Positions 19,103-36,379 of a stretch of DNA of 64,000 bases are shown here, in pieces. Where the stretch lies: positions 62,001 to 126,000 of the forward strand of contig NZ_FNDW01000002.1 in assembly GCF_900099685.1 (NCBI RefSeq). Reading direction: 5' to 3'. Source of the DNA: Chryseobacterium taeanense (GTDB lineage: Bacteria > Bacteroidota > Bacteroidia > Flavobacteriales > Weeksellaceae). How positions within the stretch are numbered: the first letter of the stretch is position 1; each line of letters opens with the position of its first letter. The notes under the pieces are model-generated. The model was given only the letters and a program-made list of their open reading frames with translations. It made no database searches and was not told the origin of the DNA. The translations under genes were made by a program, and so were the position numbers.

Positions 19103-22048
19103 ATGTTTAAACAATTCGCTTTTCTCACTTTGCTGTTTATTGGTTTACTAACAAATGCACAAAATGTTCATAATACACTTAGTTTATTACCAAATTATAT
19201 AAAGTCCAAAGGCGAAAAAGGTGATTTCCGGATTGCAGCCAACGGAACTACCGCAAAGATTATTGTAGATCAGGATGACTGGAAAGGCGTTATACGTGCA
19301 GCAAATGATTTGGCCGATGATGTACGTAAAGTGACAAACGTAGCATTCCCAGTAGTTAAAGATACAAAACTTTCGCCTGGAGCCATCATTGTAGGGACTA
19401 TTGGCAAAAGTAAATTGATCGATCAGCTTGTAGCAAACGGTAAGCTGAAAGTGGATGCCGTAAAAAACAAATGGGAATCTTTTGTGATCCAAACTGTTGG
19501 AGATAATCTTATCATTGCCGGTAGTGATAAACGCGGAACGATATATGGCATTTATGATGTTTCAGAAAAGATAGGGGTATCCCCGTGGTATTATTGGGCT
19601 GATGCTCCGGTAAAAAAAAGTACAGATCTTTATGTGAAAGCAGGTCGTTATCTGCAGGAATCGCCAAAGGTTAAGTACCGGGGTATTTTCATTAATGATG
19701 AAAGTCCTTCATTTTCTGGTTGGTCTGCAAAACATTTTGGCGGAATAAATTCTAAAGTATATACTCATATTTTTGAATTACTACTTCGTTTGAAAGCCAA
19801 TTATTTGTGGCCTGCAATGTGGGGTAATGCTTTTAATGAGGATGACCCGATGAGTCCTGTCCTTGCCGATGAATATGGGATTGTAATGGGTACGTCTCAT
19901 CACGAACCAATGATGCGGGCGCAGAAAGAATACACCAAACGAAAAGAACAAATCGGGGCTTGGGATTATGTTACAAACGCAGAAAATCTGAAGAAATTCT
20001 GGACCGAAGGTCTGGAAAGAAATAAGAATTACGATAACATCATTACAATGAGTATGCGTGGTGACGGTGATGTTGCAATGGGAAAAGGTGATGATGCAGA
20101 GAATATTAAAATCCTCAAGCAAGTGATCTCTGACCAGCGTGAGATTATCGAGAAAGTGTATAATAAAGATCCGGCAGAAGTTCCTCAGCTCTGGGCGATA
20201 TTCACGGAAGTACAACGTTATTATGATGCCGGAATGAATGTTCCGGATGATGTGACACTGCTTTTCTGCGATAACAATTGGGGTTATATCCGACGTACCG
20301 CACCTGCAAAAGAGCTTAAACGTAAAGGTGGTATGGGATTATATTATCATATTGATATGAATGGAGGCCCGTGGAATGATCGCTGGATCAATACGACTAC
20401 CGTACCAAAATTGCATGAACAGTTCAGCCTGGCGTATAAAAGCGGCATCGACCGTATCTGGATTGTAAATGTTGGAGACCTTAAACCAAAGGAAATGCCG
20501 ATTGATTTTATTATGCGTTATGCCTGGAATCCCGATGCTATCTCTGCTAACCAAACTTTTGATTATATGCAGGATTGGGCAGCTTCGATTTTCGGAAAAG
20601 AGCACGCCGCAGAAATCGCAGAAATCGTATCAAAATACTCCAAATACAACCTGATGCGTAAGCCTGAGGTTCAGGATCCTAATATTTTCAGTTTCGTGAA
20701 TTATCACGAAGCAGAACGTGTACAAAAGCTTTGGCGGGATTTTGCAGCAAAAGCAGAAGCTCTGGAAAAGAAAATGCCGAAACAAGCATTGGATGCTTAT
20801 TATCAGTTGGTGCTTTATCCAACCAAAGCATCAGCCGGCGTTGCGGAGATTTATCTGGCAGCTGGCCGTAACAATCTGTACGCCAAACAAGGCAGGGTAA
20901 GTGCTAATGATTACGCCGAACGTGCAAGAGAATTGTTTGAGTTGGATAAAAAACTGACTGCCCGTTACAATGATTCTATTGCCGGTGGAAAATGGAAAAA
21001 TATGATGAGCGATGTACATTTGGGTTATCAAAAATGGTCTATGCCGAGAGAGAATACATTGCCTCCTCTTGATATGGTTACGCCTTTAGCTTCTCCTTCG
21101 TTGGGTGTTGCAGTGGAAGGTAGTACAGATGCTTGGCCGGGAACAGAAGTAAAAGCAGAACTTCCGCAATTTGATGCGCTGGATAAGCAGCGTTACTATA
21201 TTGACGTTTTTAACCGTGGAACAGGATTGGTCCAATTTACCGCTAAAGCAAATCAGCCGTGGATCAGATTAAGTACAACCAAAGGAAAGACTGTAAAAGA
21301 ACAACGCATTTATGTAGATATCGATTGGAAAAAAGCTCCTGCCGATAAGAGCTCTGGTTTAATAGAGATTAATCAAGGCAATACCAAAGTACCCATAATT
21401 ATCAATGCATTAAAAAAAACTGCGCCTAAAAGTAAAGATAATTATTATGGAGGATACTCCGGTGAATTTTCTATTCCTGCAAACAAATTCAGCGCTAATG
21501 TACCAGGAAATAATGCAAAATGGATTGTTCTGTCGGGATTGGGAAGAGCCGAAGCCTGTATGGGCATTGATCCTACAACTGCTCCAAGTTCAACCCCTGA
21601 AAATGCCCCTCGATTGGAATATAATATTTTTCTTCCTGAAGCAGGTGCTGCTAATGTTTTACTTGGTATTCTTCCAACACAGGATGTTAACCCGGGTCGT
21701 GGATTAAGAATAGCAGTTTCTATTGACAATGGCGAACCTGTTATTATCGATGCTAGAAAAGGCTATCACGATGAATTTAAAGAATACACACCAGAAAATT
21801 TAAGTCGTTCAAAAGTATTGAAACCACTACCGGAATTCGGACACAACTATGCTTTGATTTCACGAGGAAAGCCTCGCCGTACCGAAGTATTTGATAATCA
21901 GCGTTGGCTGAATGCGACGCTGGATGTGAAAACAGAAGGTATTCACACATTAAAAGTTTTTATGATAGATCCGGAAGTGGTATTAGAGCGTATTATTGTC
22001 AACCCAAATGATAAATATCCCAGTTATCTGGGTGCACCTGAAAGATAA
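19103..22048 (+). CDS. GH115 xylan alpha-1,2-glucuronidase
   Basis: 981 residues, secreted (signal peptide MFKQFAFLTLLFIGLLTNAQ). GH115 landmarks are intact: KYRGIFINDESPSFSGW, LKANYLWPAMWGNAF, GTSHHEPMMRAQ, MSMRGDGDVAM, DNNWGYIRR, GGMGLYYHIDMNGGPW, then helical and C-terminal beta domains (to VLERIIVNPNDKYP). GH115 enzymes remove 4-O-methyl-glucuronic acid side chains from glucuronoxylan, including from internal xylose units. The uronate and xylose pathways it would feed are encoded about 30 kb away in this window. Longer than the broken paralogue by about 120 residues, mostly in the C-terminal half. Confidence 0.92.
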   Translation: MFKQFAFLTLLFIGLLTNAQNVHNTLSLLPNYIKSKGEKGDFRIAANGTTAKIIVDQDDWKGVIRAANDLADDVRKVTNVAFPVVKDTKLSPGAIIVGTIGKSKLIDQLVANGKLKVDAVKNKWESFVIQTVGDNLIIAGSDKRGTIYGIYDVSEKIGVSPWYYWADAPVKKSTDLYVKAGRYLQESPKVKYRGIFINDESPSFSGWSAKHFGGINSKVYTHIFELLLRLKANYLWPAMWGNAFNEDDPMSPVLADEYGIVMGTSHHEPMMRAQKEYTKRKEQIGAWDYVTNAENLKKFWTEGLERNKNYDNIITMSMRGDGDVAMGKGDDAENIKILKQVISDQREIIEKVYNKDPAEVPQLWAIFTEVQRYYDAGMNVPDDVTLLFCDNNWGYIRRTAPAKELKRKGGMGLYYHIDMNGGPWNDRWINTTTVPKLHEQFSLAYKSGIDRIWIVNVGDLKPKEMPIDFIMRYAWNPDAISANQTFDYMQDWAASIFGKEHAAEIAEIVSKYSKYNLMRKPEVQDPNIFSFVNYHEAERVQKLWRDFAAKAEALEKKMPKQALDAYYQLVLYPTKASAGVAEIYLAAGRNNLYAKQGRVSANDYAERARELFELDKKLTARYNDSIAGGKWKNMMSDVHLGYQKWSMPRENTLPPLDMVTPLASPSLGVAVEGSTDAWPGTEVKAELPQFDALDKQRYYIDVFNRGTGLVQFTAKANQPWIRLSTTKGKTVKEQRIYVDIDWKKAPADKSSGLIEINQGNTKVPIIINALKKTAPKSKDNYYGGYSGEFSIPANKFSANVPGNNAKWIVLSGLGRAEACMGIDPTTAPSSTPENAPRLEYNIFLPEAGAANVLLGILPTQDVNPGRGLRIAVSIDNGEPVIIDARKGYHDEFKEYTPENLSRSKVLKPLPEFGHNYALISRGKPRRTEVFDNQRWLNATLDVKTEGIHTLKVFMIDPEVVLERIIVNPNDKYPSYLGAPER

Positions 22049-22210: not shown

Positions 22211-23464
22211 ATGAAGACATTAATTACAAAAGTGAAATGCTTTCTGGGGATTATCATATTCCTCTTTACCAGCGTTAGTTTCTCTGCACAAAACTATGTC
22301 GGGAAAATTTTTGATCAGTTAAGAGGGCAGGTTTTCTCTTTATACGATAACGGTTTAGTCGTTCAGGACGGAAATCCCGGAAACAGAGGCTTTGCACAAC
22401 GCGATCCTTCAGGGATGATGTTTCTGAGACTGCCGGCTGTTAACCCTTACAGAAATGCCTATTTTCTGGATTATCGCGGAAACTTTATTGAGATCGACTA
22501 TGCTTTAGGCAGCAGAGTGATTGGAAAATACGATTTCCAGCCACCCGCACCGCTGACGGTAATATATCAACCTGTACAGACTAACCCGAATATCGGAATC
22601 ATGACCGCAAGTGGAAATGTGACTCCCATTCCGGTTAATCTCGTTAACAAGGATCAGCCGTTCGGTGACGTAATGATAACTTCTGAGCAGGCTGCCGTCA
22701 ATTGTTATAATCAATCATTAACTTCAGGTAATCAGCTTAATCAAAGTGCTTTTGGCGACTGTATGATTGCAAATATGACTGGTAGAAAAGAAAATGAAGT
22801 CTATAAATGTGTTAAAAATTCGGCGACCGTGGAAGAGCAGACTTTGTGTATGGTTGGCGTGATGGGAGGAAGCAAAGAGCAGCAATATGCTCAAACCCTT
22901 GCAAAATGCTATAGAGAATTTGGGACAGACTACAGCAAATATCCGTTGTGTCTGGCAGGAGAAGTCTCAGATCCTGAATTGCAAAAGCTCGTTTCCTGTG
23001 TAAAACAACAGGCTCAGACCGGGCAAGTGAATTTTATGAATACTGCCATGTGTTATGGAGCCGATAAATTTAATCTGAATACTGAGGCGACGATTGCAGT
23101 TCAGTGTGCTGCTACATCCGGCGGACAGCCTTACGTATTTGTTGGATGTGCAGGCGGTCAGCTTACCGCAATGGAACTTAATAAATGTTTGACAATAGGA
23201 GTAGGGGGTGATAAAGGATGTTTCGGTAAAAATAATACGATTGTAAGGACTTTAAATTCTCTTGGACAAGAAATCAGTCAGCATTTTGGGCCCAATAATG
23301 ATATTGTGAGAAATTTTAATAATGTGGTTCAGGATTTCACAACAGGACCGGGTTATAATCATGAAGCGGTGAAATTACTTCGCAATACAGGCAATGAACT
23401 CCGTAAAGCCGGCGGGAATATTGAAAGAGAAGTCAGGAAAGTTCTTCCGAGAATTAAATGGTAA
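22211..23464 (+). CDS. secreted protein with repeated cysteine pairs, unknown function
   Basis: 417 residues with a signal peptide (to about residue 26, SVSFSAQ). Residues 30-150 look beta-rich (GKIFDQLRGQVFSLYDNGLV; FLDYRGNFIEIDYALGSRVI). Residues 165-345 contain six units, each with two Cys separated by 10-18 residues and joined by 12-19-residue linkers (for example CVKNSATVEEQTLC and CYREFGTDYSKYPLC). This pattern suggests tandem disulfide-linked helical hairpins. The tail is basic (VRKVLPRIKW). No known family was recognised. It stands alone with its own terminator, downstream of GH115 but with a 162-nt gap, so no functional link is claimed. Confidence 0.75.
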   Translation: MKTLITKVKCFLGIIIFLFTSVSFSAQNYVGKIFDQLRGQVFSLYDNGLVVQDGNPGNRGFAQRDPSGMMFLRLPAVNPYRNAYFLDYRGNFIEIDYALGSRVIGKYDFQPPAPLTVIYQPVQTNPNIGIMTASGNVTPIPVNLVNKDQPFGDVMITSEQAAVNCYNQSLTSGNQLNQSAFGDCMIANMTGRKENEVYKCVKNSATVEEQTLCMVGVMGGSKEQQYAQTLAKCYREFGTDYSKYPLCLAGEVSDPELQKLVSCVKQQAQTGQVNFMNTAMCYGADKFNLNTEATIAVQCAATSGGQPYVFVGCAGGQLTAMELNKCLTIGVGGDKGCFGKNNTIVRTLNSLGQEISQHFGPNNDIVRNFNNVVQDFTTGPGYNHEAVKLLRNTGNELRKAGGNIEREVRKVLPRIKW

Positions 23465-23761: not shown

Positions 23762-24121
23762 TTAATTAAGTTCATAATGCTGGATCAGCATACTCAACAT
23801 AAAATGAACGTAATTCTGATCTGCTTCTTTTCTGTTGAGAAGCTTGTTTTTGTAATTATAGGAGCTTAATACTTTTGATAGTTCCTGATAAGTTTCAAAC
23901 TTTTCATCTTTGATTTTTACTCTCAGGTTCCCGTCTCTTCTTTGAATAAGTTCGTTGTCAAGTGTTCTCACTTTAAATATAACCTCACACAATTTTGGGT
24001 TAAAATTCATTTTCCCAGTGTATCTTTCAATAATATTAACTTTAAACGAATCGAATGTAATCGTATTAAAGATAAGATTGGAGCCGGATTTCTCTGTGTT
24101 GAGATCAAGCGTATAGTTCAT
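23762..24121 (-). CDS. hypothetical protein, 119 aa
   Basis: A soluble, charged protein beginning MNYTLDLNTEKSGSN, with a beta-rich first half and a helical second half (TYQELSKVLSSYNYKNKLLN). No domain recognised. The ATG was chosen over an in-frame TTG 18 nt upstream because that TTG lies inside a well-spaced promoter box. It lies 129 nt downstream of the usher-like gene on the same strand but has its own promoter. Function unknown. Confidence 0.65.
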   Translation of the reverse strand: MNYTLDLNTEKSGSNLIFNTITFDSFKVNIIERYTGKMNFNPKLCEVIFKVRTLDNELIQRRDGNLRVKIKDEKFETYQELSKVLSSYNYKNKLLNRKEADQNYVHFMLSMLIQHYELN

Positions 24122-24136
24122 AAATTTAAATTTGTA

Positions 24137-24166
24137 CAAATGTAGTCAGAAGATGAAAAAATTCAA
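24137..24166 (-). promoter_or_regulatory. promoter TTG-N19-TACATTTG
   Basis: On the minus strand a TTG (24166-24164) and TACATTTG (24144-24137) are 19 nt apart, an ideal Bacteroidota -33/-7 pair. The -7 box ends 15 nt before the ATG of the 119-residue protein gene. Confidence 0.6.
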
Positions 24167-24250: not shown

Positions 24251-27049
24251 CTATTGGCTGCTAAATTTCTTCACTCTGATTTTCTTTTCCTTTACTTTTA
24301 TCACAAAAGTATTCAACTCAGTTATTTTACCCGCTTCTACCTTAAAATCCTGAACCGTATTTTCGCAGTATGTGTTCGACGGCAGGGAGTTTTCGTTCAG
24401 TCGGATCTTGTAATCTCCCGATTCAATGAAAGATATTATTTCACCATTATCATCAGTAATGATGTGTCTCACCATTTTTTCATCTTTATAGATATCAAAG
24501 AGGATTCCTCCCGATTTAGGATCAAATTCAAGCGCAGTTTTGGTATCAAAAACATAATTTATTTTACCCTGAACAGTTCCGTTTCGATGTAATGGAATCT
24601 CAAAAGTATAATGATGCTTATTAACGTCAAATTCAGATTCATCGTAATACCAACCCTGTTGGATTACCTGTTTAAGGCTGTATCTGTCGTAAGGAATAGC
24701 TTTGTACTCAATAGTTCCCTCATCATTGGTTTTGAATGAAATATTATTAAGCATAATAATGTGCCCAACTGCCTTTTCGTCGCCTTCATCATAAATATTA
24801 TTATTGTTGCGGTCATAATAAACAAAAGCCTTGATGTTTCCTTTCTTTCCGGGATCCAGATTATTGCTTCTTAGATTAATTGTAACTCCGGCTTCAACAG
24901 TTAAAAGGTTGTTTGTGAAAGTATTCATTGAATAATTAAACCATGACGAATTCACGTAGAAGCCATATCTTTCTTTTGAATACTTTAGATTTACAAATCC
25001 GGAGGGTGATTTTCCGTAAAGCGTATCATCAGTGTAAGAAAGCCCCGAATTAATACTGAGTTTACCTTTAAGCATAGTATGGGTAATGAACGCCGAAACA
25101 GATTTTTTTTCGTAAGTATTGTTGGTTCCCAATAATTTTGAAAAGGCATATTCCGAAAGATAATAGCTTCCATACTGATAGATGAATTGCAGATTAAGCC
25201 ATTTGTAGGCATAGTTTCCCATAAATTTCATCTGAAATCTATCTTTGTCAGAATCGGGATAGTTTACGATTCCTGTCTCTATACCGAGAATAGAGGAGTG
25301 CTTTCTATCAGGACTCGACCAGCTTATACGCTCAATGAGTCTTTTTGCCGTCATTTCTTTAAGCTCTTTATTCTCTGTAAGTCCGAAAAAAGTATTGTAG
25401 GTATTTGAGTTTTCATTCTGATACTGAAAGCTGAGCCCCAGTCCCAGGCTTTTTCTCTTAGGGAAGTTGAATCCTGTTTCCAGTCTTACACTGTTCGTTT
25501 CTAAATTATTGTCGTAGAAATAAAATTTTGGCGAAAAATTAGAGAGCATCATATTGGCAAAAACAGAATGATCTTTAAAAATACTTGAAGAAATATTTTG
25601 CTGCAACTGAACTATACCTCTCTGGTTTCCGGGATAATAATTTGAACTAAAGGAATAATTTCCGCTAATATTTACCTTGTTGATATTTCCGGAATATTGG
25701 GTTTCAAGGGCTCCGGATGGTTTTGTTTTGTTGATACTTTCATAAAAACTTACTCCACTGTAAAGTTTGGCGCTTAAATTCCATTCTTTATTAAATGCAT
25801 ATTGGAAATTTGTACCCAGTAAATTATGCTTCACCTTTTCGTAAGGGTCACTTTTAAAAACATATGCTGCAGAGATATTTTTACTTGCATTATTTGCTCC
25901 CAATATTCCTCTCACATAGAATCCGTATCCTAATTCTAAAAATCGCGTTCTCTCTATAAGACTGAAACTTTGATCTATAAAACCAATTTCCAGCCTTTTA
26001 TTTTTATCGTGAGAAGTGAAAGCATATTCTGCACCTCGTCCGTACAAAGAAAGTTCTATGATCTTACTGATATTCCCAACGGTAAATTCACTTTTTTCCC
26101 TGTGATATGTGATGAAAGTATTATTGACGATAGGGTCTTCCAAACCATTGGTTTTGTAGATGTTTCCTCTTATGAAAACATATCCGGAAGGAAGATTAAA
26201 ACCTCCTGAGCCGATGAGTTGGTACAATGCTGTCTGCTGCCCCATATATCTGTAGCTTGCAGTAATACTGTTTTTGGTATAATTGAGGTTATTATTGTCT
26301 AAAGACATATAATGTTGTGTTGAAGAATTGTTCTGAATAGATGTAATACTATTTCCGAACATTTCTTTATCGGGTTCTCTGAAACCGACAATGTTCACAC
26401 TGAATTGTGGTGTTTTCATAAGATTGCTCGACGGTCTGAATCGATAGATAAACACAGAATCTTTCTGTACCGCAATAACTCCCTTTTTTTCTACGAAAAA
26501 GCTTCCCTGATCTGCTTCCGGAATTTTGAAAACGACCGTAACGTGTTGTGGTTTGTTTCCTAAATTTGAAACTCTTGCCCTTACTTCTATTGAGTCGGTT
26601 ACATTGCTCATATAGATTAAAGGAGTGTCTGTACTGATCGCTAATGCATTATTTTCGGGAATGTTGTGGGTCATCGTCTGTTTCAAGACTTCATGATCTA
26701 ACATATCTTTCAGGGTAAATACGATTTCACTTTCTCCGAAACCTGCGTTGCTGTTAATCAGGAATTTAACGGGAAGATAGATATTATCACCGGCGTTTAC
26801 ATCTATTTCATTCATATTTCCGGAGATATTCCTGAAACCTGAAGGAACATTGATGAATAATTTGCCTTTAAAGTTGTTCAGGGAATTATTTTTAATTTCA
26901 ACAATTGTACTTATGATACGATCTCTTCCAAGGCTGGATTCGTCACGGATTTCCATGCTGATTCCGCTGCCAATTTGAGCAGAAGCTGAAACTGAGAGGA
27001 ATAAAATTAATAATAAAAGGAAAGTTTTCTGTAGGTTATTAGAGGACAT
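24251..27049 (-). CDS. usher-like outer-membrane barrel of a chaperone-usher-type system
   Basis: 932 residues: signal peptide (to about 25, SVSASAQ), an N-terminal region of Ig-like strands (about 28-240), a long stretch of alternating beta-strands rich in aromatic and Tyr/Asn/Ser residues (about 240-745) as in large outer-membrane barrels, and a C-terminal domain beginning GNIKAFVYYDRNNNNIYDEG with a Ca2+-loop-like Asp/Asn run and TNDEGTIEYKAIPYDRYSL, like the Cna-B/carboxypeptidase-regulatory domains of ushers. It lies 8 nt after the adhesin-like gene and downstream of a PapD-like chaperone. The usher role rests on architecture and context; direct family membership is untested. Confidence 0.65.
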   Translation of the reverse strand: MSSNNLQKTFLLLLILFLSVSASAQIGSGISMEIRDESSLGRDRIISTIVEIKNNSLNNFKGKLFINVPSGFRNISGNMNEIDVNAGDNIYLPVKFLINSNAGFGESEIVFTLKDMLDHEVLKQTMTHNIPENNALAISTDTPLIYMSNVTDSIEVRARVSNLGNKPQHVTVVFKIPEADQGSFFVEKKGVIAVQKDSVFIYRFRPSSNLMKTPQFSVNIVGFREPDKEMFGNSITSIQNNSSTQHYMSLDNNNLNYTKNSITASYRYMGQQTALYQLIGSGGFNLPSGYVFIRGNIYKTNGLEDPIVNNTFITYHREKSEFTVGNISKIIELSLYGRGAEYAFTSHDKNKRLEIGFIDQSFSLIERTRFLELGYGFYVRGILGANNASKNISAAYVFKSDPYEKVKHNLLGTNFQYAFNKEWNLSAKLYSGVSFYESINKTKPSGALETQYSGNINKVNISGNYSFSSNYYPGNQRGIVQLQQNISSSIFKDHSVFANMMLSNFSPKFYFYDNNLETNSVRLETGFNFPKRKSLGLGLSFQYQNENSNTYNTFFGLTENKELKEMTAKRLIERISWSSPDRKHSSILGIETGIVNYPDSDKDRFQMKFMGNYAYKWLNLQFIYQYGSYYLSEYAFSKLLGTNNTYEKKSVSAFITHTMLKGKLSINSGLSYTDDTLYGKSPSGFVNLKYSKERYGFYVNSSWFNYSMNTFTNNLLTVEAGVTINLRSNNLDPGKKGNIKAFVYYDRNNNNIYDEGDEKAVGHIIMLNNISFKTNDEGTIEYKAIPYDRYSLKQVIQQGWYYDESEFDVNKHHYTFEIPLHRNGTVQGKINYVFDTKTALEFDPKSGGILFDIYKDEKMVRHIITDDNGEIISFIESGDYKIRLNENSLPSNTYCENTVQDFKVEAGKITELNTFVIKVKEKKIRVKKFSSQ

Positions 27050-27057
27050 TTGAGTTT

Positions 27058-28083
27058 TTATTGGGGCGTTATCTCATACTGGAGAGTAGCTGAATAATCG
27101 TCTGATTTTGCGTTAATAAATATTTCATCATTATGGATAGTTGAATATTTCACATCATAATATACGGTGTTGCCCTGTGTGGCATTTCCTTTGGCGACGA
27201 GCTGTGGCGATGCGCTTAACGAGATAGGAAATACACTCGTATTAGCCGTTGCAGAATTAAGAGCCATCTTTACCGCATTAATCGGGATAGAATTACCATA
27301 TGATGATGTAAACTGAGATTGCAGAGACTTTAGCTTAATCTGATAATTGGTATTGCTTTTTACCATTAAAGCATTATTGTAGGTTACGCTTACTCCATTC
27401 GTGTAATCATCCATGCTATTGAATTCGAGAAGAGCATTCTGCGCACTTGGCGCAAAAGTTAATGACAATTCAGGAATGTCTACAGGAGGAGTTCCGGACA
27501 GGGTGCCGATCTGCAGTTCAAAAATATGATTCATTTTACCAATGACATTGTTGTACTGGTCATACATTGTAAATTCAACGGGCGCATAGAATTTAATCCA
27601 AGCGGGATAATTACCAAGGTAAGCACCTCCCATCACAGTCAGGCTAAATTTAATCTGTAAATTGTAATATCCGTTATTCTGTGCCGGCTGGTTATATAGT
27701 GTGGCATTGGATTTCGGGACTAGAAATACTTCCTGTCCTTCCTGAAGTACTACATTAAGAGGCATTCCGATCTGTGAAATGCCTGGAGTTGGACCAGGAT
27801 CAGCCTGTCCTGAAGCGGAAACAGGATGCAGGGAAACTTTATTGCCTGGCATAGTGTATTGTCCATCGTTGGTCATGATAGGCTGTTTAAGCTTTGCAGA
27901 TAGTTTCCAGAACGGAACATTAAAATTACCGTTTCCGCTCATCATAGCCGTGTAGGCATCGGGATTGGTATTTCCCTCGTAAGAATTGATTTGCAGGTAG
28001 CTATTAACCCATGAATAATAGGAAATTTGTGAATATATATATTGACCTGCCAATAGCAGCAGGAATGAAAAAATTTTAATCAT
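27058..28083 (-). CDS. adhesin-like two-domain surface-fibre subunit
   Basis: 341 residues with signal peptide MIKIFSFLLLLAGQYIYSQ. Residues 20-205 form an N-terminal beta-rich domain without clear homology. Residues about 205-341 align with the small pilin-like protein encoded upstream: DDYTNGVSVTYNNALMVKSN here against DDYANGVSSLNTDHLSIYST there, then YQIKLKS against FQVKVKS, and the C-terminal strand SATLQYEITPQ against ELTYTIIAQ. A unique receptor-binding domain in front of a pilin domain is the layout of chaperone-usher tip adhesins. The start overlaps the chaperone stop by 8 nt. The adhesin role is inferred. Confidence 0.6.
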   Translation of the reverse strand: MIKIFSFLLLLAGQYIYSQISYYSWVNSYLQINSYEGNTNPDAYTAMMSGNGNFNVPFWKLSAKLKQPIMTNDGQYTMPGNKVSLHPVSASGQADPGPTPGISQIGMPLNVVLQEGQEVFLVPKSNATLYNQPAQNNGYYNLQIKFSLTVMGGAYLGNYPAWIKFYAPVEFTMYDQYNNVIGKMNHIFELQIGTLSGTPPVDIPELSLTFAPSAQNALLEFNSMDDYTNGVSVTYNNALMVKSNTNYQIKLKSLQSQFTSSYGNSIPINAVKMALNSATANTSVFPISLSASPQLVAKGNATQGNTVYYDVKYSTIHNDEIFINAKSDDYSATLQYEITPQ

Positions 28084-28891
28084 ACATAAAATTTAACTCG
28101 CCGAGTTCAAGATTATTATCGCCGTAATCGATCATTACGGATGCTGTATATTTTCCTTTCGGAAGATCTTCGGGGAGAGAAATATTCATTTCTCTTTTAT
28201 TTCCGGGCATGGTATAAAATACGATAGCATCTATAGATACTTTTTTACCGTTTTCCACATTCACAAAGTCTGTGTAAACTTTACCGTCTGTCCATACATT
28301 TCCTTCATTTTCAAAAAACAAATTCAGTTGTTTTTTAGATTTATCGAAAGTCAGGTTCTGTATTTCTATTTTTTTTGCTTTTGCAGAAGGTAATTTGTGA
28401 AATATTTTTATTCCGGACCGGATACTTACTTTTATTTTTGCACCTTTACTGTCTACATCATCTACCGGGTTCATCTGGCTTACATACAAAACGGCACTGT
28501 GTGCCTCCAATGTATCAGACAGTTTGTTGGGAACCGTTATGGTAACATCAATATCTTTTCTTTCTCCTGGACCTAACGAAAAGTAATTGTCTTCTTTTTT
28601 TACACTGACCCATCCTGCACAGGATACTTTCAGGCTATTGGCAGCAGACATCATATTTTCGCCTTTCTCATTGTATTCCCAGTCGCCAAGGCTTATGGCC
28701 AGATCCAGAGAATTTTTGGTACTCACATTGGTGACTGTTATTTTCTGTGTATTACTGTTTCCTGCAGTTGATTCAAAATACAATCTCGGAGGTGAAACCG
28801 AAACGCCGGTTTGAGCCTGAAATAGCGAAAAAAAGGAAATCAGAAAAAAAAATAAAATAAAATGGGATAAGTAGGTCTTGTTCATTATCAT
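28076..28891 (-). CDS. PapD-like periplasmic pilus chaperone
   Basis: About 270 residues with a signal peptide (hydrophobic core FILFFFLISFFSLF, cut near AQTGVSV). Two Ig-like domains follow: VSVSPPRLYFESTAGNSNTQ opens domain 1 like the first strand of PapD chaperones, with SLGPGERKDIDVTITVP in the G1-strand region, and domain 2 starts near residue 165 (KIFHKLPSAKAKKIEIQNLTF). In known systems the chaperone donates its G1 strand to pilin subunits in the periplasm. Two ATGs 6 nt apart are possible (28891, 28885); a TTG further upstream is unlikely because it lies in a terminator. Overlaps the adhesin gene by 8 nt. Confidence 0.7.
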   Translation of the reverse strand: MIMNKTYLSHFILFFFLISFFSLFQAQTGVSVSPPRLYFESTAGNSNTQKITVTNVSTKNSLDLAISLGDWEYNEKGENMMSAANSLKVSCAGWVSVKKEDNYFSLGPGERKDIDVTITVPNKLSDTLEAHSAVLYVSQMNPVDDVDSKGAKIKVSIRSGIKIFHKLPSAKAKKIEIQNLTFDKSKKQLNLFFENEGNVWTDGKVYTDFVNVENGKKVSIDAIVFYTMPGNKREMNISLPEDLPKGKYTASVMIDYGDNNLELGELNFMYD

Positions 28892-28911
28892 AGTAAAGAC
28901 TGAGACAGCAG

Positions 28912-28943
28912 AAAAAAAATGCCACAATTACTTGTAGCATTTT
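28912..28943 (-). terminator. terminator between the pilin and chaperone genes
   Basis: On the minus strand, AATGCTACAA-GTAA-TTGTGGCATT forms a 10-bp stem with one T-G pair and is followed by a run of T. It lies 30-60 nt after the pilin stop and just before the chaperone start. Partial read-through would give much pilin and little chaperone and usher, as in known fimbrial operons. Confidence 0.7.
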
Positions 28944-28972
28944 ATTTTGGTTATAATATCTACAGTATCTTA

Positions 28973-29494
28973 TTATTGTGCAATAATAGTGTAGGTAAGT
29001 TCGGTAGTATAGATTGTAGGGTCTTGTCCTGCAATATAATTATCAATGTATGCATTGGCGCCTGCACCTTTATACTCGATGCTGATCTTTTTGTTTACAC
29101 CACCAGCGGTAGATGTTACTAAAGTAGTTTCGTTGGCAGATAGAGTAGTACCCTGTGCATATTGTGCTCCGTTTACGGCTTCAGAACCTGCACTTGCCTT
29201 GATCTGGATAGTGTTAGCCTGAATATTTTTTCCTCCGTTTTGTAAAGCTGCATTAGCGCTTTTTACTTTAACCTGGAATCCTCCTGTACTGTAAATACTC
29301 AAGTGGTCAGTGTTAAGGGATGATACACCATTAGCATAGTCATCTTTTGTTACGTAGTCTAAGTTAACGATTTTCTGAGAGTTGTTTACTACGAGTGTTT
29401 GAATAGGTTTTAGTCTTACGTTTAGAGTAACGTTTTGGGCATTGATGGTTACAAACCCTAGTAAAGCAAGTGATGCTATAATACACTTTTTCAT
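28973..29494 (-). CDS. pilin-like major surface subunit
   Basis: 173 residues with signal peptide MKKCIIASLALLGFVTINAQ. The mature protein is beta-rich and short: NVTLNVRLKPIQTLVVNN, DDYANGVSSLNTDHLSIYST, GGFQVKVKS, ending in an amphipathic strand ELTYTIIAQ. It shares these motifs with the C-terminal half of the adhesin-like protein and, in part, with the 138-residue protein encoded upstream. It has its own -7 box and a strong terminator, suggesting high expression. Likely the main fibre subunit, exported by the chaperone and usher encoded downstream; this is inference from homology within the locus. Confidence 0.65.
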   Translation of the reverse strand: MKKCIIASLALLGFVTINAQNVTLNVRLKPIQTLVVNNSQKIVNLDYVTKDDYANGVSSLNTDHLSIYSTGGFQVKVKSANAALQNGGKNIQANTIQIKASAGSEAVNGAQYAQGTTLSANETTLVTSTAGGVNKKISIEYKGAGANAYIDNYIAGQDPTIYTTELTYTIIAQ

Positions 29495-29538: not shown

Positions 29539-29546
29539 CAAATGTA
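29539..29546 (-). promoter_or_regulatory. -7 box TACATTTG of the pilin-like gene
   Basis: TACATTTG on the minus strand, 45 nt before the ATG, matches TAnnTTTG exactly. No TTG at the ideal spacing was found upstream. It supports a separate transcript for the pilin-like gene. Confidence 0.45.
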
Positions 29547-32274: not shown

Positions 32275-33063
32275 ATGAACAGAAATATTATCACTCTTCT
32301 GATATTAGTATCTATTACTTTATTATCATGCAAACCCAAACAGAATATGGTGTACATGTCAAAAAGCAACATGGAAGAAGAAGTCGCCAAAGCAAAATTT
32401 CAGGGTTTACACATTCAGGAAGGAGATGTTCTTCTTATCCTTGTTTCCGCGCTTGACGAGGCTGCTGTAAAGCCTTTTAATCTCAACACAGCAAATAAGG
32501 TTGGAAGTGAGACTGCCACTGGAATGAATCAATATGTACAACCTAGTGAATATCTTGTGAATGAAGAGGGGTATATTAACTTTCCTGTTTTAGGAAGCAT
32601 ATATACTAAAGGAATGACACAGATTCAGTTAAAACAAGATCTTGAATCACGTTTAAAAAGATATCTTACCGATCCTTTGGTAACAATTACTCTTAAAAAC
32701 TTTAATGTCAGTGTTTTAGGTGAAGTTAAACAACCTGGACAGAAAGAAAGCGTTTCCCAGAAAATCAATGTATTCCAGGCAGTTGGTCTTGCAGGTGATA
32801 TGACAGATTTTGGTGATCGTACTCATGTGAAGCTTATCAGAACAACAGACGAAGGTAGTGATGAAATCGTAAATCTTGATCTTACAAGATCCGACATCGT
32901 AAACTCTCCGTATTATTATATGAAGCAAAATGATATATTGTATGTACAGCCAGATAAAAATAAGCAGATTCAGGCAAATTCAAATCCTAACAGAGCTCTT
33001 ACTTTTCAGATTATTGGTACATTATTAACGGCAGCTACTTTAATTATTGCTTTAAAAAGATAA
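32275..33063 (+). CDS. wza: Wza-like polysaccharide export outer-membrane lipoprotein
   Basis: 262 residues with lipobox LLSC (Cys19). The export domain shows LHIQEGDVLLILVSAL, then EYLVNEEGYINFPVLG and the SLBB-type stretch VSVLGEVKQPGQKE, ending in a C-terminal membrane segment (FQIIGTLLTAATLIIALKR). Forms the outer-membrane channel of Wzx/Wzy-type capsule or exopolysaccharide export. First gene of the locus, 8 nt before the wzc-like kinase gene. A C-terminal transmembrane helix is common in Bacteroidota versions. Confidence 0.88.
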   Translation: MNRNIITLLILVSITLLSCKPKQNMVYMSKSNMEEEVAKAKFQGLHIQEGDVLLILVSALDEAAVKPFNLNTANKVGSETATGMNQYVQPSEYLVNEEGYINFPVLGSIYTKGMTQIQLKQDLESRLKRYLTDPLVTITLKNFNVSVLGEVKQPGQKESVSQKINVFQAVGLAGDMTDFGDRTHVKLIRTTDEGSDEIVNLDLTRSDIVNSPYYYMKQNDILYVQPDKNKQIQANSNPNRALTFQIIGTLLTAATLIIALKR

Positions 33064-33071
33064 GTGTAAAT

Positions 33072-35408
33072 ATGCAACAAATAGAACTTCAGGAAAAGGA
33101 AGAGAAAATTGATTTAAGAAAGACCATCTCCAAGTACCTTTACAAATGGCCATGGTTTGTGGCATCTGTTTTAGTTTGTGTGATCGGTGCATATATTTAT
33201 CTCAGATACAGTGTCCCTAAATATCAGACTAAAACAACACTTAAATTCGATAAAAAGGAAAACGATCTTACTTCCGCATTGTCTGACCTTAGTAATCTGG
33301 GTATAGGACTTGGAAATGCGGATGAGCTTAAAAGTGAAGCTGCTGTAGTTAACTCAAGGCCAATCCTCAATCAGGTTGTTCAAAATCTTAATCTGAATGT
33401 TGAATATTTTAATACAGGAGATATTAAAGATTCTCAGTTGTTTACGGATATTCCGATATCAGCAACTATTTTAAAGTTTGATGAAAAGTTTAAATCTTCC
33501 GAATATAATCTGGGTAAAATTAGCGGAAACAATTTTACGCTTGTTAATGAAAAATATGGAAAGTTCACAGGAACATTCAATATGCCTCTTAAGCTTGATT
33601 TTGGGACTGTGATATTGAGAAGAGATGCTCGGTACGCTTTAAAATCAGGATATAAAATTATTTTTTGGAATCCGATTGAAAAAGTTAAAAAACTCGAAAA
33701 AACAATTCAGGTAGATATACCAGATGATAAGGCTTTGTTAATGGATATCAGCCTCGTAGGAACCATTCCTATAAAGTCGGAAACAATTCTTAACGAGTTG
33801 ACACGTCAGTACAATTTAGACGGACAAAAAGATAAAAACCTGCAGGCAGAAAATACTCAGAAATTTATTGATAAAAGATTAGAGGTAATTACCAAGGATC
33901 TTTCAGGTGTAGAAAATCAGAAAGAAAATTTTCAAAATCAAAACCGCATCGTTGACCTTCAGGCACAGGCTGAGTTGGCTTTACAAAATACAAGTGACAA
34001 TACAAAAGCGCTCCTTCAACAGCAGGCTCAGCTTGATCTTTTAAATTCACTTACGTCTGAAGCCGCAAAAGGCAATAATCAGCTAATGCCATCAAATTTG
34101 GGATTAAATCCTTCACTCGAGCAGTCAATTGCGCAATACAATCAGATGCTCATCAGCAGAAATAAGACTCTGAAGCAGGCCACCAATGAAAACCCTGCTG
34201 TAATAGAAATGAATCGGGAAATTGCTTCTTTAAAAGATATTATCCGAGACAATATCCGTGAACAGAAAGATGCAGTAAAAGCCACCATTTCACAATTACA
34301 GAATCAGATCAATACAAGTAATAATCTTATAGAAAAGGTTCCGGGGCAATCTAAAATTTACAGAGGTATAGAACGTCAGCAGAATCTTAAAGAACAGCTT
34401 TTCTTATTTCTCCTTCAGAAAAGAGAAGAAAATGCTATCAATTTATCTGTTGATGTTCCAAAGGCAAAAATTGTAAATCCCGCATATACAGATGATATTC
34501 CTGTTTCTCCAAAAAAAGATATTATTATTTTAGGAGCATTTTTATTAGGTTTATTTATTCCATTTGCTGCGTTCTATTTAATTTTTCTTCTGGATGATAA
34601 GATTTACACTAAAGATGATATCAAGGAACGATCAAATCTTAGTGTTTTGGTCGATATCCCTTCCTTAGAAGTAGATGATAATCATTTGGTACAAAGAAAT
34701 GATTTTACAGAGCTTGCAGAATCATTTAGAGTTTTAGCTTCCAATCTTAAATTTGTGCTTCCTAAAAAAGATTCTGCAAAGGTTATCATCGTCACATCTT
34801 CTGTAAAAGGCGAAGGAAAAACCTTGGTTTCAGTAAATCTTGCGCTAACTCTGGCAAATAAAAGTGGAAGAGCGCTGCTCATAGGTTCAGATATCCGGAA
34901 TCCTCAGATTCAGAGATATGATAGTGAGCCTGTAAAAAGAAAAGGTCTTACGGAATTTTTATACGATGAATCAGTAAACGTAGAAGATTTGATCCATACG
35001 TCGTACACTAATTCTTACTGTGACGTAATCTACGCAGGAGCAATTCCTCCGAACCCTCAGGAACTTCTTTCCAACGGAAGATATCAGGCTCTGATTGCTC
35101 AGATGGCATCTCAATATGCTTATATAATTATTGACTCTGCTCCGCTTATGCTTGTCTCGGATACTCTAAGCATTGCAGACGTAGCAGATGCAACACTATA
35201 TGTGGTAAGATCAGGAGTTTCCAGAAATATACTTATTGATTTCGCTCAGGATCTTGTAAAAGAATCAAAATTAAAGAATGTTTCTTTTGTTGTTAATGAT
35301 GTTTCCAAAAAAGCAAGAGGCTACGGATATGGCTATAATTATGGTTATGGCTATGGATATAATAATAAAGAAGCTAAAAAAACTTGGTGGAGTAAAATTT
35401 TTAAATAA
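33072..35408 (+). CDS. wzc: Wzc-like polysaccharide co-polymerase and tyrosine autokinase
   Basis: 778 residues. Wzz domain with a first membrane segment (WFVASVLVCVIGAYIYLRY, about residues 32-50), a long periplasmic coiled-coil region, a second membrane segment (IIILGAFLLGLFIPFAAFYL), and a cytosolic BY-kinase domain: Walker A SSVKGEGKT (near residue 577), Walker A' IGSDIRNP, Walker B IIIDSAPLML. The C-terminus is a tyrosine-rich tail of repeated YGYGYNYG type, the autophosphorylation cluster. Controls chain length and export with Wza. All functional parts are present. Confidence 0.93.
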   Translation: MQQIELQEKEEKIDLRKTISKYLYKWPWFVASVLVCVIGAYIYLRYSVPKYQTKTTLKFDKKENDLTSALSDLSNLGIGLGNADELKSEAAVVNSRPILNQVVQNLNLNVEYFNTGDIKDSQLFTDIPISATILKFDEKFKSSEYNLGKISGNNFTLVNEKYGKFTGTFNMPLKLDFGTVILRRDARYALKSGYKIIFWNPIEKVKKLEKTIQVDIPDDKALLMDISLVGTIPIKSETILNELTRQYNLDGQKDKNLQAENTQKFIDKRLEVITKDLSGVENQKENFQNQNRIVDLQAQAELALQNTSDNTKALLQQQAQLDLLNSLTSEAAKGNNQLMPSNLGLNPSLEQSIAQYNQMLISRNKTLKQATNENPAVIEMNREIASLKDIIRDNIREQKDAVKATISQLQNQINTSNNLIEKVPGQSKIYRGIERQQNLKEQLFLFLLQKREENAINLSVDVPKAKIVNPAYTDDIPVSPKKDIIILGAFLLGLFIPFAAFYLIFLLDDKIYTKDDIKERSNLSVLVDIPSLEVDDNHLVQRNDFTELAESFRVLASNLKFVLPKKDSAKVIIVTSSVKGEGKTLVSVNLALTLANKSGRALLIGSDIRNPQIQRYDSEPVKRKGLTEFLYDESVNVEDLIHTSYTNSYCDVIYAGAIPPNPQELLSNGRYQALIAQMASQYAYIIIDSAPLMLVSDTLSIADVADATLYVVRSGVSRNILIDFAQDLVKESKLKNVSFVVNDVSKKARGYGYGYNYGYGYGYNNKEAKKTWWSKIFK

Positions 35409-35410
35409 AA

Positions 35411-36379
35411 ATGGGTAAAATTTTAATTACAGGAGGAGCTGGATTCATAGGCTCTAATCTTACGGAGTACTTTTTAAATAAAGGATATCAGGTTGTTTGT
35501 CTGGATAATTTTTCAACAGGACATCGTCACAACATTGAGCCATTCTTAAAAAATCCGGATTATAAACTGATCGAAGGCAGTATTTGTGATGTTGAGATAT
35601 GTAAAAACGCGGTAGAAAATGTAGATTATGTTCTTCATCAGGCTGCTTTGGGATCTGTTCCGAGATCTATTAATGATCCCATTACAAGCAATGAAGTGAA
35701 TGTTTCAGGTTTTCTGAATATGCTTGTCGCTGCGAGAGATGCGAAAGTAAAACGTTTTGTGTATGCTGCTTCATCTTCCACATATGGTGATTCTGCTTCA
35801 CTTCCGAAAGTAGAAGAAGTTATTGGTAAACCATTATCACCATATGCGATCACTAAGTATGTTAATGAACTATATGCTGATGTTTTTTCTAAAACCTATG
35901 GCATAGAATGCATTGGTCTAAGATATTTCAATGTTTTCGGACGTAGACAGGATCCTAACGGAACTTACGCCGCAGTAATTCCTTTGTTTGTAAAGCAGCT
36001 GATGAATCATGAGTCTCCGAAAATCAACGGAGCTGGTGATTATTCACGAGATTTTACCTACATAGACAATGTTATACAAATGAACGAGTTGGCTATGCTT
36101 ACAGAAAAAACTGAAGCTATTAATACAGTTTATAACACGGCTGTAGGGGATCGTACAACATTAAACGATCTTGTAAATTATATTAAAAAATATCTGAGTG
36201 AATACGATGATCAGATTGCTAATATTGAAATCGTACACGGGCCAAATCGGGTAGGAGATATTCCGCATTCATTGGCATCTATTGAAAAAGCTAAAGCTCT
36301 TTTGGGATACCATCCAAGCCATACCATTGAAAATGGACTGAAAGAAGCCATTAAATGGTATTGGGAGAATTTAAAATAA
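35411..36379 (+). CDS. UDP-N-acetylglucosamine 4-epimerase (WbpP/TviC type)
   Basis: 322 residues of the extended SDR family: GGAGFIGSN at residues 8-16, the catalytic region [19 protein letters not shown] (Tyr-x3-Lys), and [15 protein letters not shown], the last typical of WbpP/TviC, which act on N-acetylated UDP-hexosamines. It converts UDP-GlcNAc (or UDP-GlcNAcA) to the galacto form. The TviB-type dehydrogenase gene next to it makes UDP-GalNAcA the likely product of the pair. Cytosolic; 2 nt after wzc. Confidence 0.85.

Follow-up and report, generated by a model that had tools for sequence, protein, structure and literature searches.

A candidate chaperone-usher-type pilus operon in Chryseobacterium taeanense with a FimH-like two-domain adhesin and pilins related to TLP-1 fibrils

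The closest described systems are the chaperone-usher (CU) pili, the type V pili and the TLP-1 fibrils. In type 1 pili the adhesin FimH combines a unique head with a pilin domain, and the pilin FimA combines a pilin domain with a donor strand. Type V pili, of the FimA/Mfa1 kind of Porphyromonas, polymerise by strand exchange as well, and their loci are not known to encode a PapD-like chaperone or an usher. The PDB entries 9IKJ and 9IKK, TLP-1a and TLP-1b, are fibrils from pond water that are known only by electron microscopy (CryoSeek); in the PNAS report of 2024 their Ig-like protomers are reported to be completed by the donor strand of protomer n+4 and to form a hollow fibre. Neither proteomics nor metagenomics has identified a source organism or genes for the pond-water filaments, as stated in a 2026 review (PMC12967142). 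CU systems have been listed in Proteobacteria, Cyanobacteria and Deinococcus-Thermus and not in Bacteroidota (PMC4654587). In our literature search, which covered mainly open-access journal papers, we found no description of CU pili in Chryseobacterium, Flavobacterium or Bacteroidetes/Bacteroidota.

The locus described here resembles the classical and alternative CU pili (type 1 Fim, P, CFA/I, ECP) in its gene set, in a chaperone with equivalents of Arg8 and Lys112, in a two-domain adhesin that lacks a donor strand, and in the usher fold. No sequence-profile relation was detectable between its pilin, adhesin and usher and their counterparts in E. coli K-12. It has the FimH/FimA division of domains in common with type 1 pili, but not the sequence, and the adhesin gene lies between those for chaperone and usher. 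With the type V pili it has the phylum in common, whereas lipobox, Pfam families and assembly genes differ.

The locus lies in a 64,000-nucleotide stretch of C. taeanense DNA (the window) from a genome of 3.94 Mb. Six co-directional genes occupy the minus strand from 31091 to 24251 (Table 1). The two reading frames that the earlier note had related to each other were found where it placed them, and the chaperone gene sits between them. The chaperone and adhesin genes overlap by 8 bases and the adhesin and usher genes are 8 bases apart, so that these three genes are probably co-translated, as judged from their spacing. Searches of all operon proteins against Pfam and NCBIfam reached the cut-offs only for the AraC regulator and for a SpaA-type C-terminal domain.

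Table 1. Features of the putative pilus operon, in window coordinates
Feature	Position	Strand	Remarks
AraC-family regulator, 278 aa	30255..31091	(-)	First gene ahead of the pilus genes; HTH_18 2.9e-17
Short pilin-like protein, 138 aa	29789..30205	(-)	hhalign versus pilin family 98.6%
TACATTTG, likely pilin promoter	29539..29546	(-)	45 nt before pilin start
Major pilin candidate, 173 aa	28973..29494	(-)	Signal peptide, no lipobox; homologous to TLP-1a/b by profile
Pilin N-terminal extension NVTLNVRLKP, residues 21-30, putative donor strand	29405..29434	(-)	
Hairpin and T-run, between pilin and chaperone genes	28916..28943	(-)	
PapD-like periplasmic chaperone, 271 aa	28076..28891	(-)	hhalign to E. 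coli FimC family
Candidate two-domain tip adhesin, 341 aa	27058..28083	(-)	
Adhesin head domain, residues 20-200, predicted beta-sandwich, putative binding domain	27484..28026	(-)	AF2 model
Adhesin pilin domain, residues 203-341, without donor strand	27061..27477	(-)	Profile alignment, VIA-align
Usher-like outer-membrane protein, 932 aa	24251..27049	(-)	Foldseek, VIA-align
Usher-like protein: two Ig-like N-domains, residues ~30-246	26312..26962	(-)	Model strand pattern
Usher-like protein: beta-barrel, residues 261-725	24875..26269	(-)	DSSP of AF2 model
Usher-like protein: two C-terminal beta-domains, residues 736-919	24293..24844	(-)	

Each of the 21 Chryseobacterium loci inspected has the order pilin-chaperone-adhesin-usher. 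Most of them have an AraC-type gene ahead of the pilus genes, and 13 have the 138-aa protein. Full-length adhesin was found in 38 of 147 relatives searched. A scan of named genomes with the adhesin alignment gave C. cheonjiense (88% adhesin identity) and C. takakiae and C. taichungense (both 84%) as the closest named relatives. The same order was also found in Flavobacterium (L167 and the named loci L103-L105 and L109) and in distant Bacteroidota (L159, L162, L163, L166).

The earlier note had proposed that the short protein and the C-terminal part of the large one share a pilin domain, and the comparison bears this out. Both proteins carry the motif DDYxNGVS (DDYANGVS and DDYTNGVS), an (F/Y)QxKxKS strand (FQVKVKS and YQIKLKS) and a C-terminus that ends in Gln (TYTIIAQ and QYEITPQ), as the note had listed. 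Profile-profile alignment, the check named there, gave probabilities of 96.8-99.4% for homology between the last ~137 residues of the large protein and the pilin. The family profiles aligned pilin residues 35-173 with adhesin residues 209-341 (96.8%, E 2e-10), and with broader sets (26 pilins, 12 adhesins) this rose to 99.4% (E 5e-22). Since control comparisons of the pilin profile with the chaperone, the usher and the E. coli FimA family stayed at or below 6%, the shared domain exceeds chance. Single-sequence searches of whole genomes with adhesin residues 203-339 retrieved pilins of ~180 aa in many genomes and also the C-termini of ~485-aa proteins from a second locus, again in many genomes. 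The part unique to the large protein, residues ~20-200 after the signal peptide, was confirmed and has no Pfam match.

The distribution of the donor strand, which goes beyond the earlier note, supports the candidate tip role of the adhesin. Directly after the signal peptide the pilin has NVTLNVRLKP, with the alternating hydrophobic strand VTLNVRLKP; in 26 aligned pilins the residues at positions 22, 24, 26 and 28 are hydrophobic and those at 21, 23, 25, 27 and 29 polar. The 138-aa pilin-like protein has the same N-terminal motif (TTVNIRLYPTQTLTIN) and a shortened body. In 12 aligned adhesins a Gly/Pro-rich linker replaces the strand. Because the pilins could thus both give and accept a strand and the adhesin only accept one, the adhesin would be assembled first, at the tip. 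Such a pattern, read from the alignments, fits a tip subunit.

The AlphaFold2 model of the adhesin consists of two beta-sandwich domains (mean pLDDT 87), with an uncertain relative orientation (pTM 0.55). When this model was searched against the PDB with Foldseek, without preselected templates, CfaB fusions and the CfaE complex of CFA/I, a chaperone-adhesin complex, occupied ranks 1-3 and 5, and CfaE, LpfD, EcpA and SafD followed lower among the best matches. Differing folds would have refuted the proposal of the earlier note; instead, the model matches CfaB-CfaB, CfaE and LpfD, which are donor-strand pilins or two-domain adhesins of CU systems. With strong profile similarity and agreeing predicted folds, a FimH/FimA-type relation of binding domain plus pilin domain is supported. 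The top VIA-align match of residues 202-341 was TLP-1a (9IKJ; Z 9.5, 3.4 A over 138 residues, 15% identity), a likeness of TLP-1 to the window system. The best matches of the head (residues 20-200) were the GH123 N-domain, EcpA and CssB at Z ~8 and are not specific, and the head has no family match in Pfam. Because of their middling Z, the matches of the head to the GH123 N-domain and EcpA, like those of the usher barrel to porins, were treated as common arrangements.

With a chaperone gene between the two subunit genes and an usher gene after them, both absent from the earlier note, the system is complete. This supports an extension of the FimA/FimH reading to the whole operon, consisting of regulator, short pilin-like protein, pilin, chaperone, adhesin and usher-like barrel. 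The profile of 18 chaperones was aligned by hhalign with the E. coli FimC family, for which the fimbrial chaperones of E. coli K-12 served as yardstick. Probabilities were 96.2-97.2% (E 2e-9 to 5e-11) over 206-212 columns that cover both domains, and controls did not exceed 4%. In this alignment VSPPRLYF of the chaperone faces the Arg8 region of FimC and SGIKIFHKLP the Lys112 region; IKVSIRSGIKIFHKLP pairs with the FimC segment that holds Lys112, and YGD pairs with NDYG. The equivalent of Arg8 is present in 17 of the 18 chaperones of the family alignment. That of Lys112 is present in all chaperones of the first type, and His or Tyr takes its place in the second type and in the most distant members. 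No Pfam family reached its cut-off in the chaperones, and PapD_N appeared below it in 6 of 18. By this alignment the protein is a distant homologue of FimC and PapD that keeps both carboxylate-anchoring residues. Since the chaperone aligns with the E. coli family and the usher and pilin do not align with theirs, it is a tested relative of the PapD family; usher and pilin are at best related to their E. coli counterparts by fold.

In the model of the 932-aa protein (mean pLDDT 85), two Ig-like domains at the N-terminus precede a barrel built of 26 long strands, which two beta-domains follow at the C-terminus. Each of the first nine Foldseek matches was a FimD or PapC structure (best E 1.6e-15), and VIA-align superimposed residues 258-919, i.e. 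the barrel and C-terminal domains, on PapC with Z 16.3. The similarity of the barrel is partly generic, since OprD-type porins and LptD also reach Z 16. In its modelled form the protein thus has an usher-like architecture of barrel plus two C-terminal domains. It differs from classical ushers, according to the model, in its two Ig-like N-domains, its 26 strands and the lack of a plug-sized insertion, the last judged for residues 261-725 from the DSSP strand pattern of the predicted model only. Among usher family members the Ig-like N-domains gave Pfam matches to NPCBM_assoc and FixG_C, and the C-terminal region matched SpaA (1.7e-5) and, in family members, CarboxypepD_reg and SdrD_B. None of the 34 usher-like members matched the usher models of Pfam (Usher, PapC_N, PapC_C) or of NCBIfam, and hhalign of the family with the E. 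coli ushers gave 1.7%.

A search of all PDB sequences with the pilin-family profile, up to E 10, returned only 9IKK (5.4e-6) and 9IKJ (1.9e-5); PDB sequence searches with the adhesin, chaperone and usher profiles gave nothing useful. The match spans the N-terminal donor strand (EQNVTVTMDLQPVLQL) and the first part of the pilin body, and the donor strand is its best conserved part. With the family profile the real TLP-1 fragment scored 27.8 bits versus 13.2 for the best of 2000 shuffles. When the bridge sequences were left out the signal was weak: 12.2 bits, with the 2000 shuffles reaching up to 9.9. The direct link of the window pilin alone to TLP-1 is weak, and the connection runs through the pilins of L160 and L189. 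TLP-1 differs from the window pilin in its longer protomer (236-237 aa) and is closest to these two, which belong to another Bacteroidota family; the closest bridge is the L160 pilin (E 4.9e-9). The bridge pilins match the remaining pilins with 5.8e-11 and a profile-profile probability of 97.6%, and the chaperone and usher of the bridge loci match those of the window operon at 2.4e-46 and below.

The TLP-1 fragment was used as query against 395 genomes of the phylum and 118 genomes of the bridge family; matches came from two genomes, and L189 was found by this fragment alone. Both relatives lie in pilin-pilin-chaperone-usher operons, which makes these operons a candidate genetic locus for the TLP-1 class of pili. 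The second pilin in each (L160:6325-6918, L189:7076-7627) has no donor strand behind its signal peptide, and these proteins are candidates for head-less tip subunits of TLP-1-type pili. A literature search that covered mainly open-access journal papers found no published description of TLP-1 relatives. On profile evidence the pilins belong to the orphan TLP-1 fibril family. We give somewhat better than even chances to the broader proposal that these operons form a Bacteroidota branch of their own within the CU pathway, with a plugless 26-strand usher carrying Ig-like N-domains, and that they assemble TLP-1-type pili, where a subunit may receive its donor strand from one that is not adjacent to it. 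If they do, a gene locus, a chaperone and an usher can be assigned to the orphan environmental fibrils, and for Flavobacteriales a FimH-like tip as well. The operon also offers a testable gene set for the TLP-1 fibrils, whose structures came without a source organism (PMC12967142).

On our reading, very probably the right one, the operon builds an adhesive pilus through a CU-type mechanism; polymerisation, assembly order, tip position, ligand and attenuation are inferred. The pilin, the short pilin-like protein and the adhesin would reach the periplasm via Sec, where the chaperone would lend its own strand to each incomplete Ig-like fold and grip the C-terminal carboxylate of the subunit. The usher would recruit chaperone-subunit complexes at the outer membrane. 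With an acceptor groove and no donor strand, the adhesin would enter first and end up at the tip, and later pilins would insert their N-terminal strand into a subunit ahead. As the fibre grows out of the barrel, it would carry the head domain at its far end, where this domain would bind a surface or a glycan. The hairpin after the pilin gene would provide more pilin than assembly machinery. If true, a complete CU system in Bacteroidota that is invisible to sequence comparison would widen the evolutionary range of the pathway and would explain how surface attachment could come about in many Flavobacteriales, Chryseobacterium associated with fish and clinics among them.

The 341-aa protein might instead be a base anchor, or a terminating or capping subunit, whose N-domain contacts the outer membrane or the usher. 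Such a protein could equally have two domains and one copy per locus, and the lack of a recognised binding-domain family suits it. Furthermore, an adhesive head might be expected to vary, whereas with mean identities of 66% for the N-domain and 57% for the pilin domain in Chryseobacterium and near loci the N-domain is not the faster-evolving of the two. However, a base terminator must donate a strand to the preceding subunit, and the 341-aa protein has none. The paralogous locus described below, where the same pilin domain carries an unrelated longer head, shows the pattern of exchangeable tip heads. We therefore regard a basal role as unlikely and retain the tip adhesin.

Two other readings concern the system as a whole. 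That barrel and chaperone merely export both proteins, as a secreted pair or as single molecules attached to the surface, would agree with the failure to detect sequence similarity between this usher and known ones. The homology of the pilins to TLP-1a/b, solved as fibrils, with the donor strand as the best conserved part, led us to reject this secretion-only reading as highly improbable. Least probable of all is a Bacteroidota type V pilus of the FimA/Mfa1 kind, built from protease-matured lipoproteins, even though phylum and strand-exchange polymerisation would fit. The signal peptides (...TINAQ/NVTL in the pilin and ...YIYSQ/ISYY in the adhesin, the slash marking their end) contain no lipobox cysteine, there are no FimA/Mfa Pfam matches, and a PapD-like chaperone and an usher-like barrel are encoded alongside; on these grounds it was rejected.

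The presumed attenuation rests on a hairpin with a 12-bp stem followed by a T-run. Its consensus stem has 9 pairs, kept in nearly all of the 21 loci, with compensatory changes that affect both sides in 4 pairs. Promoter- and terminator-like matches occur in the region at the chance rate, and the hairpin is backed by comparative evidence only. Proteobacterial pilus operons offer a precedent for a hairpin that keeps the machinery less expressed than the pilin, and the hairpin here probably acts likewise. The likely pilin promoter fits TAnnTTTG, the Bacteroidota -7 consensus.

Many Chryseobacterium genomes have a paralogous locus (L032, L034, L036, L037, L042) with 2-5 near-identical pilins, a chaperone, an usher and a 478-aa adhesin, followed by a histidine-kinase-like gene and a response regulator. 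By profile alignment this adhesin and that of the window align only over the pilin domain, and the heads differ. Orphan, near-identical pilin copies lie amid unrelated genes in some genomes (L033, L039, L041:10904-11425), one of them 90% identical to the window-type pilin and far from its operon; gene conversion or expression switching could draw on such copies. The C. taeanense genome itself contains a second, more divergent locus (L176:495-5741, G000:C15). It encodes a 191-aa pilin-like protein, a 267-aa chaperone-like protein (E 4e-34 to the family profile; WxLIP_HBD Pfam match 4.6e-9), a 914-aa protein at the usher position and two more small exported proteins.

Polysaccharide export and nucleotide-sugar genes (Poly_export, Wzz/GNVR/AAA_31, epimerase) adjoin the operon at window positions 32275-36379, and sugar-nucleotide genes also lie beside the operon in two distant loci (L159:1-5400, L162:1-2142). 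At the other end it is adjoined by genes for a 119-aa protein (23762-24139) and a 417-aa protein (22211-23464), neither with a Pfam match; placement of the 119-aa gene after the usher gene is confined to the closest relatives (L043, L044). A protein of glycosyl hydrolase family 115 (Pfam match 2.2e-144) is encoded at window positions 19103-22048.
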